Shown piece by piece: positions 38,381 to 63,864 of a stretch of 64,000 nucleotides of DNA. Position 1 is the first letter of the stretch. Every line of letters starts with the position of its first letter. The translations under genes were made by a program, and so were the position numbers. Source of the DNA: Tetradesmus obliquus (Eukaryota > Chlorophyta > Chlorophyceae > Sphaeropleales > Scenedesmaceae); the NCBI GenBank assembly GCA_030272155.1, contig CP126199.1, forward strand, positions 1,240,001 to 1,304,000. The letters are read 5' to 3'. Below the pieces are notes generated by a model. It did not search any database, was not told the origin of the DNA, and saw only the letters and a list, made by a program, of their open reading frames with translations.

Positions 38381-41300
38381 ATGCAACAACAGCAGAATGG
38401 AGGTAACAATCAGCAGCCAACAGCACAGCAGGCAGCCCTGCTGCAACAGCTGCAGGCTAGTCTGCAGGCTCTGCAGCGGGCTCAGCAACAGCAACCTGCT
38501 GCACCTGCAGCTGCGCAGGCAGGCAGGGCACCAACTGCTCAGCCTCAGCTGCAGTTGCGTCCACAAGCTGCAACAACGCCGCAACAGCAGCAGCAGCAGC
38601 AACAGCCGCAGCAGCAACAGCAGCAGCCACAGCTGCGCGTGGGAGTCAACCAAGCAGCAGTACTAGCGGCAGTACGTGCGATGCAGGCCGGCAACGCAGC
38701 CAGGCCTTCCCAACAGCAGCAACAGCAGCAGCGTACTATCCTAGTGGCAGCACCTGGAGGCGCAGCAGCACCTGCTGCCACTGGAGTGAGGCCCCAGTTG
38801 GATGACTGGGGCAGAGCAGTTGCCGCACCTGGTGCCGTACAAGCCATGGCGCAAGCCGTTCGGCCCGTGCTTGCAGGAAACAGTGCAGCAGCAGCACCAG
38901 CAGCGGCAGCAGGGCGTGCAGCGCCAGTCCAGCTTCCAGCGGCAGTGCCAGGTGTGCAGTTCCGGCCAGTGTCTGTCGGCACGTATGCAAACGGCAACCC
39001 GAGGATCGTCATGGTGCCAGACAACGGGAGTGCTGCGGCTGCCGCCGCTGCTGCTGCTGCAAGCAATGCAGCAGCAGGTGCTGCGGCAGCAGCAGCAGCC
39101 GGCCAAGCCCGGCCACCCCTGCACTTCGCTGCACCTGCGCAAGGACAGGGGGGTCCAGTAGTGGTGGCTCGTGGGAACTCAGGCCTTACACAGGCACAGC
39201 AGCTGCAGCTGATGCAGGCGCAGCAGCGGCTGATGCAGGCCCAGGCGCAGGCGCAGGCGCAAGCACGGCAGCAGCAGATCGCGCAGGCGCGGCAGCAGGC
39301 TGCAGCAGCTGCTGCGGCAGTGCAGGCCCAAGCACAGCAGGTGAGCGCGCGCTGATGTGTGGCACGACTGTGCAGCAGAGACTTTGGGTGTGCGAGATGG
39401 CACAGCAGCATGTAGTATATGCATGTGCGCTGTGGACGGCTAGTTGTGCCTGCTAGAATACAGCTCAACTTGTCCAGGGTGGCAGGGATAAGCAGTTTCA
39501 GCACTGCCGGGCTGCATGGCTGAGGCAGTGCAGAGGCAGCAGCAGTAGCAACAGCAGCAGCAGCAACAGCAGCAACAGCAACAGCAGAAGCAGACGACAC
39601 AGCATGCATGTCGCACTGTGTACTGTTGGGGAAGTACCAATGTGTGCTAGTGTGAGGAGGGCGCAGCAACACCATTGTGTGCTAGTGTGAAGAGGCGCAC
39701 ACCAGCACCAGCACATGCACTGGTACCAGCAGCTGCAACAGAATGCTTCTGCAGCCAAGGTGCATCACCCGGCGTGCCGTGGGCTTTGCTGCGCAAGTCG
39801 CCAGTGCAGGATTGCTTGCTGCTCACGCAGAGCCAGCAGGCCAATCAGCAGCAAGCAGACCAGATATCAGTACAAAAGAGCATCGTGTGCTTTTGTTGCC
39901 CATTGCTTTGCAGGATGCTGCGGAGGAGGATGTCGGGGAGGAGGCTGAGGCAGAAGATACAGACATCTATGCCACATACAGGTGGGCTGGCAGCAGCTCA
40001 CACTGGCAGCAGTGCAGCAGCACCAGCAGCAGCTGTGCCAGCGGCGGCACTTGGCAGCAACAGCCGCCGCCGTGCCAGTGGAGGCACCTTGCAGCAGCAG
40101 CAGCCACAGCAGCACTGCCAGAGGGGGCACTTGCTTGCCTCTGTGTTTCGTCCAACGCTCATTGGCACTGCTGCTTTATGAACTGACTGCCTCTCTTCCT
40201 GACCCGTCATGTACTGTGTGTTTGCTTGCAGGCCTGCAAAGGTGACTGGCCCAGACCACCCAGACATCATCGTGGAGACTGCCCATGTTTTTCGCCCAAG
40301 CCTCATCGGCACTGCTGCTCCACACGAACTGATTGCCTATCATTTCTCCCTGCATGTGCTGTGTGTGCTGTGTGTTTGCCTGCAGGCCTGCAAAGGTGAC
40401 TGGGCCAGACCACCCAGACATCATTGTTGAGACAGCCAGCCTGGCCAGCGTCACGCCGCCAGACCCAAAGTACACCGTGCACCCGCTGCTGCAGGTGCGG
40501 CGGCAAAGCGCTGCATTCAACTTCAGGCCACTGCACACGCACCTCAACAGCTGCTTAGCAGCTTAGCTGCCTAGGCCCTTGCCTTGGTAGCAGTAGTGAT
40601 GAATGCGGCCTTCTTGTGCAGCTGCACATAGTGTATGCAAAGTCGTGTGATGGCCAGACTCAGCAGCTGGCCACGCTGCACCCCTACGGTGTTTCTGATA
40701 GTCTTATATTCTCACGCTACAAAACCCTCCACGTCAATGCATGCGCCCCGCTGCTGCTGCAGGAGGACACGGACGCCAAGCTGCTGTCGAGTGCGCAGCT
40801 GGAGACGCTGGTCTACGCCAACATGCGCTTCCACGGGCCACGCCTGCCAGGGTCAGGTGAGGCACAGCAGCAGCAGCAGCGGCAGCAGCAGCGGCAGCAG
40901 CAGCAGCAGCAGGCACTGTTCCACAAGCCCAGAGCAGCAGCTGTTGTGCCAGCCAATTGGCAGGGCACTGCAGTCATTGGAACCGCCTAGCTGTCAGTGC
41001 AGCAGCTGAAGCTCCTGCTGACCTACACGCCAGCATGCATTGTGGCAAATGATATATGTGACAACAGCTGTCCAAGGGATGACGCTTGTCATTTTGCAGG
41101 TACATGCACCTGCGCAAGCGGCTTCGTTCTGGTTGTTGCTGTGCCAGTTCTGACAGATGCTGACGTGTGTGCCTGTGTTCCTGTTTCGAATACCCCATTT
41201 TTTTTTGCAAATGTATGCGCAGGCGCGCGCGCGGGCTTCTTCCTGGGTGATGGCGCGGGTGGGGGCAAGGGCCGCCAGATTGCTGCACTCATCAAGGAGT

Positions 41301-63864: not shown

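Follow-up and report, generated by a model that had tools for sequence, protein, structure and literature searches.

Introns of a strawberry-notch gene of Tetradesmus obliquus carry partial copies of neighboring exon edges, probably left by tandem duplication across splice junctions

Why do the introns of a strawberry-notch (SBNO) gene of the green alga Tetradesmus obliquus contain fragments of the exons beside them, and why do these fragments so consistently begin or end at an exon edge? The gene, here called SBNO-A, lies on the + strand at 38381..63864 of a 64,000-nucleotide window (G000:C9:1240001-1304000, from a genome of 104.66 Mb in 17 contigs), and coordinates without a contig or locus name are those of this window. 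An exon model built by hand from reading the sequence has 35 coding exons and 34 GT-AG introns (16,775 bp in total), with a single frame of 2902 codons (2902 aa) open through all junctions, from the first base of the start codon (38381) to the last base of the stop codon (63864). A Pfam scan of nine open-frame pieces finds AAA_34 in the exon 8 piece and Helicase_C_4 in the exon 24 piece, and the pair of domains confirms the predicted strawberry-notch identity; exon 17 encodes a PHD finger. When a hidden-Markov gene finder was trained on SBNO-A, all 35 exons were recovered exactly at one setting, and the intronic fragments are therefore not needed as exons. We consider it highly likely that the fragments arose by tandem duplication across one splice junction, with the innermost acceptor-donor pair kept and the outer copy left to decay.

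The first evidence comes from local alignment of every SBNO-A exon with every intron (35 x 34 pairs, both strands, simple repeats masked). At a score of at least 25, there are 39 copies in adjoining introns on the same strand (16 upstream and 23 downstream of the exon), against 5 in all other pair-strand combinations; at a score of at least 30 the corresponding counts are 29 and 0, and two rounds of dinucleotide-shuffled introns, 2380 pair tests in all, give a single match of at least 25. The 16 copies on the acceptor side start at most 1 nt away from the acceptor and the 23 on the donor side end at most 10 nt away from the donor, and this edge rule thus holds for 39 of 39 copies. Relaxing the score to at least 22 raises the total to 44 copies and introduces one exception, a copy of the interior of exon 8 in its upstream intron (43560..43589, score 22) that starts 44 nt inside the exon and may be a decayed acceptor copy. 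The initial annotation, made from the sequence alone, had reported over 30 copies in the gene, one to six per intron, with copies 5' of an exon starting at its acceptor and copies 3' of an exon ending at its donor, and the alignment recovers all of this, the largest array being six donor-side copies of exon 22. Its further statement that most introns are affected holds for the 20 of 34 introns that have a copy scoring at least 25; the remaining introns have none at that score.

The individual copies, all on the + strand, are given here with their alignment scores in parentheses. On the acceptor side they derive from exon 3 at 40232..40283 (44), where a unit at 40136-40283 is repeated at 40280-40437; exon 5, which encodes Walker A, at 41223..41308 (72); exon 10 at 44662..44694 (29), with a weaker one at 44556-44583 (20); exon 13 at 46010..46035 (22); exon 15 at 47283..47322 (31.5) and 47412..47471 (46.5); exon 18 at 50225..50274 (35.5) and 50342..50417 (65.5); exon 30 at 58287..58352 (48.5); exon 31 at 59108..59159 (41.5) and 59232..59284 (43.5); exon 32 at 59836..59881 (28.5) and 59947..59996 (36); exon 34 at 61594..61698 (48), 61838..61924 (58), and 61980..62073 (48), with weaker ones at 61491-61513 and 62123-62153 (19); and exon 35 at 62626..62714 (56). 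On the donor side they derive from exon 7 at 43274..43302 (23) and 43370..43426 (29); exon 8 at 44022..44075 (48); exon 10 at 44920..44949 (28) and 45017..45046 (30); exon 13 at 46311..46341 (27); exon 14 at 47039..47110 (48); exon 18 at 50728..50781 (34) and 50870..50928 (47); exon 22 at 53494..53558 (35.5), 53605..53662 (54), 53769..53826 (48), 53897..53960 (48.5), 54009..54066 (48), and 54123..54163 (33.5); exon 23 at 54649..54684 (24), 54736..54771 (26), and 54866..54904 (28.5); exon 25 at 55773..55812 (32.5); exon 27 at 56908..56937 (24) and 57008..57038 (27), with a weaker one at 57094-57119 (20); exon 28 at 57640..57684 (35); exon 30 at 58719..58747 (27) and 58822..58860 (39; identical over 44 bp); and exon 33 at 60856..60911 (50) and 61116..61146 (25). 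Five of the six exon 22 copies (53494-54163) fall into two synonymous types, one like the present exon and the other nearer the paralogue described below, and resemble snapshots of two exon states. The exon 5 copy aligns over 86 nt without a gap and reads GGGKG where the exon has GVGKG; it is also the source of a further AAA_34 match in the Pfam scan (window 40991-41395, E = 5.8e-9), and since the copy matches the domain by itself, such decoys can mislead annotation. Two repeats of other kinds also lie in these introns, a long TGCG/TG microsatellite in intron 14 (46740-47073) and a 22-bp minisatellite in intron 25 (56028-56228), the units of which are near-identical and look younger than the exon-edge copies.

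Is this pattern peculiar to one gene? A survey sample of 324 kb, made up of 20 random 10-kb loci, the window, its flanks, and the region of the paralogue, indicates that it is not. A gene finder retrained on its own predictions yields 45 genes with at least two exons and 303 introns; the models outside SBNO-A are thus its own predictions, trained partly on SBNO-A, and because it predicts 38 exons in SBNO-A at the survey setting (35 of them exact), the hand model was used there instead. A first setting, which gave 243 exons in the window, was discarded. In the 45 genes, the 606 adjacent pairs contain 176 same-strand copies scoring at least 25 and 3 on the opposite strand, although copies within one array are not independent of each other. 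As a control, exons were compared with the introns of other genes, where 33 of 16,092 pairs match at a score of at least 25 (2.05 per 1000 pairs) and 0.12 per 1000 pairs match at a score of at least 30. Acceptor-type and donor-type copies, whose separate counts the initial annotation had proposed, number 78 upstream and 98 downstream, and 71 and 92 of these, respectively, reach the acceptor or donor within 10 nt; counted as arrays, the two edges are about equally frequent (42 acceptor-edge and 49 donor-edge).

The random loci taken alone behave similarly and bear out the suggestion that the process is a general one, with 99 adjacent same-strand copies against a single opposite-strand one, copies in 19 of 31 genes, and the edge rule kept by 41 of 47 upstream and 47 of 52 downstream copies. 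A copy is present in 44 of their 163 introns, which have a median length of 577 bp with copies and 262 bp without; taken by itself, this difference in length does not prove growth, since a longer intron also has more room for copies. SBNO-A, with 39 copies in 34 introns, stands above the average of these loci. Within the window, other predicted genes at 9560-15981 (+) and 28574-32647 (-) contain 9 and 2 exon-edge copies. Elsewhere in the sample, arrays of whole small exons are present at L017:6744-10000 and L022:2117-10000, and they may be tandem or mutually exclusive exons, or else decoys mispredicted as exons; the sample contains 12 whole-exon copies, in five genes, the two at these loci among them.

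How could such copies be produced? We propose that a segment straddling one splice junction would be duplicated head to tail, and that this would have happened many times over in the genome. If a unit composed of an intron tail and an exon head is doubled, the copy joined to the remainder of the exon would complete the exon and the outer copy would become intron; duplications on the donor side would be the mirror image. Duplications of whole exons or exon interiors would change the protein and would presumably be removed by selection in most cases. As junction-spanning units spare the coding sequence and other units do not, this selective filter alone would yield the edge rule, and a special exon-copying enzyme is not needed. 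The outer copy would start with usable splice signals and then decay next to an exon that stays frozen, and the intron would be lengthened by one unit, after which the cycle could repeat.

Several observations fit this scheme. Local repeat pairs within 1.5 kb are direct in 286 cases and inverted in 2, and in several SBNO-A arrays the alignment is as long as the copy spacing or longer, which places the units head to tail; across the sample, 29% of local pairs have an alignment covering at least 0.8 of the spacing, the remainder being too decayed or spaced to show it. Nearest-copy spacing has quartiles of 127, 163.5, and 248 bp. The copies take in the existing acceptor or donor together with intron flank (114 of 177 junction alignments have at least 25 intron and at least 24 exon columns), so the duplicated segment was not purely exonic, and copies of whole exons (both edges within 6 nt) account for 12 of 176, none of them in SBNO-A. 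Tandem duplication across one splice junction, with one intact exon kept by selection, was the explanation offered in the initial annotation, and it gains support from the copies, the rule, and the direct orientation. The associated proposal that CTG-rich tracts are the cause finds no support on the exon side, where the fraction of CTG/CAG-type triplets is 0.250 at 140 breakpoints and 0.249 at random positions of the same exons. Judging from the literature discussed below, the mutational step was probably end-joining of staggered breaks.

Have the introns grown as a consequence? A paralogue, SBNO-B, which allows a better test than the length difference within the random loci, is encoded on the minus strand of contig C1 (G000:C1:3970001-4010000, loci L006-L009) and has many intron positions in common with SBNO-A. 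Its introns are compact, and the predicted gene has only 2 exon-edge copies; the prediction is fused to an upstream gene that, judged by reading the sequence, resembles a FAD monooxygenase. At the 18 matched introns where SBNO-A has copies, median lengths are 506 bp in A and 225.5 bp in B, whereas at the 4 matched introns where A has none the medians are 324 and 321 bp, and the A-minus-B differences of the two groups differ (Mann-Whitney p = 0.013). Measured from exon edge to farthest copy, the stretches involved amount to 25% of the sampled intron DNA (38% in SBNO-A), in a sample whose median intron is 311 bp, and together with the longer introns of A at matched positions this upholds the earlier description of an intron-growth process. 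That growth is still going on today lacks support, as young copies are nearly absent. The paralogue was also considered as the source of the copies and rejected: where A and B differ, the copy agrees with A at 128, 81, and 79 sites (codon positions 3, 1, and 2), and it agrees with B against the A exon at just 39, 4, and 2 sites.

The scarcity of copies in SBNO-B also bears on whether the copies are an artefact of assembly, with pieces of an alternative haplotype, or mis-joined pieces, placed beside the true exon. We regard this as extremely improbable. The copies do resemble diverged alleles at synonymous sites, but misplaced pieces would neither respect splice edges nor leave the frame of 2902 codons intact, the copies show individual, graded divergence, and the SBNO-B region of the same assembly has just 2 copies in 40 introns. 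The assembly also has telomere arrays at both ends of contig C1 and at the start of C3, among the matches listed. Beside the C1 telomere, short TTTAGGG blocks recur every 889 bp (G000:C1:1170-4753), which suggests a subtelomeric satellite containing telomere repeats.

The copies plant decoy splice sites, as the initial annotation had anticipated, and most decoys are still intact. Where the edge of a copy can be aligned to within 3 nt, AG is retained in 63 of 70 acceptor copies and GT in 77 of 91 donor copies, and the decoy scores at least as high as the real site in 30 of the 63 and 45 of the 77. Intact decoys often score as well as the sites in use, and motif strength therefore cannot mark the real site. 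The real sites are, by construction, the innermost pair around the exon, and the pattern suggests that position would decide the choice, as exon definition would. An intact decoy is positioned outside the true acceptor-donor pair, where its use would shorten the intron; splicing that pairs sites across introns should therefore favor the decoys. They constitute many natural experiments in splice-site choice, and would allow exon definition and intron definition to be tested against each other in an intron-rich, probably unicellular genome. The offset between decoy and real site is in frame in 53 copies and falls in the other two frames in 56 and 42, without an evident bias toward multiples of three; 121 of 151 copies have an in-frame stop between the two sites, a proportion similar to that in random intron segments (0.77).

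Intact decoys could also mean that the copies are functional, either as alternative exons or as regulatory splice sites under selection, and the bias of copy-exon differences to synonymous sites and the scarcity of indels in the exon part point the same way. Even so, we find this very unlikely. The copies are truncated, with a whole exon present only in the 12 of 176 mentioned above, 57 of 177 have a frameshifting gap, and the exon 5 copy lacks the Walker A valine. Across 177 copies, differences from the exon amount to 0.185 per site in the intron part and to 0.078, 0.062, and 0.188 at codon positions 1, 2, and 3. Nonsynonymous change, however, is about as frequent at third positions (64 of ~800 nonsynonymous third-position sites) as at position 1 (222 of ~3130 sites) or position 2 (201 of 3282), and transversions per G/C site are 0.042, 0.040, and 0.042 at positions 1, 2, and twofold third. 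This evenness is as expected of decaying sequence without protein constraint, and it weakens the idea of coding alternative exons, which a third-position bias (155 of 234 differences in 44 copies) had suggested.

Several observations nevertheless weigh against a simple history of junction duplication followed by neutral decay. First, synonymous divergence is 0.221 and nonsynonymous divergence 0.068 (163 of 177 copies), where neutral decay predicts about a twofold difference; synonymous divergence also climbs little, from 0.182 in copies with zero nonsynonymous changes to 0.237 in those with four or more, and the data are better described by a model with an offset than by neutral decay or by a model with a faster synonymous rate. 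Second, synonymous, nonsynonymous, and intron divergence are uncorrelated across copies (114 copies; 50 copies). Third, the exon part has 0.0089 indels per column and the intron part 0.050, whereas decay on one side alone would put the exon figure at about half the intron figure. Fourth, young copies are scarce: identity reaches 94% in only 7 of the 182 non-redundant pairs tabulated (the table covers 182 of 193 pairs, leaving out 11 that are shorter than 40 bp or of mixed class), and of the 49 arrays in a tandem-repeat scan only 3 exceed 94%, their periods being 33-40 bp. Were the process steady, young copies should be as numerous as older ones, and either the wave has ended or the copies were born diverged. 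Fifth, exons match non-adjacent introns of the same genes on the same strand 27 times at a score of at least 25 (19 at 30 or more) in 4192 pairs, with opposite-strand counterparts of 4 and 0; these are possibly mispredicted exons or longer-range copies. Sixth, arrays that cross a junction outnumber intron-only arrays 91 to 14 (6.5), where simulated uniform duplication gives 1.4-2.9 to 1.

The first and fourth points would be accommodated if misaligned exchange or end-joining between already diverged haplotypes, in a hyperdiverse population or after a past hybridization, had made the copies, which would then have been born differing at neutral but not at protein-changing sites and would leave pieces of a second haplotype in the introns. 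The -logL is 684.07 for the offset model, 697.03 when the synonymous rate is instead made faster, 729.12 under neutral decay, and 673.93 with both additions; the 29 copies without nonsynonymous change still have synonymous and intron divergences of 0.182 and 0.188; and the near-absence of pairs with at least 94% identity extends to intron-only (0 of 29) and intergenic (0 of 13) pairs. With SBNO-B as the outgroup, third-position changes fall on the copy lineage in 45 cases and on the exon lineage in 39, with 22 unassigned, although B is distant and misassigns some changes. Other results are less favorable: the correlation between synonymous and intron divergence that this explanation predicts is also absent, kappa in the full model (0.24) is below the expectation of either reading, and a past wave that has ended would likewise remove young pairs. 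On balance, an origin between diverged haplotypes seems to us unlikely, and its specific form, out-of-register exchange between haplotypes ~10-19% apart at neutral sites, somewhat more so. If true, the introns would preserve a record of a second, lost haplotype or hybrid partner, and such a genome would resolve mismatched recombination by means of junction-crossing duplication.

The excess of junction-crossing arrays raises a different alternative, in which duplication is not uniform but directed at splice junctions or at transcribed exon edges, as breaks linked to transcription might bring about. The simulations tell against purely uniform duplication, giving ratios of junction to intron-only arrays of 2.15, 1.4-1.5 (present introns), 2.0-2.3 (repeat-free introns), and 2.2-2.9 (other indel rates), all lower than that observed; in addition, clusters without exon sequence occur at the same density in introns (14 in 116.6 kb) as in intergenic DNA (13 in 108.2 kb), despite less room in introns. 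The simulation is crude, however, with ancestral intron lengths, unit sizes, and intron turnover guessed, and frozen exons may keep junction copies visible for longer than was modeled. Targeting is thus a possibility that we take seriously, albeit one we do not expect to be correct. We retain duplication across splice junctions with loss of the outer copy as the best account, while noting that the near-absence of young copies, the synonymous excess, and the model-dependent excess of junction arrays do not fit it; the process could be ongoing, a past wave, or the trace of divergent haplotypes.

How does this compare with known systems? Among the titles and abstracts that our searches turned up, none reports exon-edge copies in introns across a genome, although such a report may still exist. 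Tandem duplication is a recognized route of intron gain (PMC3443670; PMC2891723), and in the model of Rogers (1989; described in PMC3443670 and PMC4974935) local head-to-tail duplication adds splice sites, as here; in that model, however, duplication of an exonic AGGT segment creates an intron, whereas here existing introns grow. Tandem (mutually exclusive) exons involve duplication of a whole exon with both splice sites, a class to which just 12 of the 176 copies could belong. Introners (PMC9860276) similarly have a large effect on intron content in some lineages, but they copy into many genes, whereas the copies described here match their own neighboring exon and rarely the introns of other genes (2.05 per 1000 pairs). 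Relatives of Chlamydomonas have long introns, with medians of 198-343 bp compared with 311 bp in our sample, and the part of that account consulted (PMC8226300) does not mention exon-edge copies.

For the mutational step, end-joining of staggered breaks produces small tandem duplications, which are said to be the commonest short insertions in the human genome and are suspected in plants (PMC8355091). These resemble the copies in being local, direct, and without a mobile element; they were described in mouse embryonic stem cells and are <100 bp, whereas the spacing here is mostly 127-248 bp, and the correspondence in mechanism is presumptive, the copies having diverged too far for their junctions to be placed at base resolution. 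The closest parallel is the potato RdRp gene, in which a tandem duplication over an intron-exon boundary made a new intron (PMC4974935). There too the duplication crosses a boundary, the upstream copy loses part of its exon to an intron, and the splice signals of the parent junction are inherited. The potato case is one recent event that yielded a new spliced intron and an added piece of exon, whereas in T. obliquus there are 176 mostly old copies in 324 kb, inside existing introns and on both acceptor and donor sides. The elementary event is thus already known from potato; its scale is new, and the symmetry between acceptors and donors and the standing load of intact decoys further set the present case apart. 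Exon-edge duplication provides a concrete, transposon-free source of intron growth, with a quarter of the sampled intron DNA lying between an exon edge and its farthest copy.

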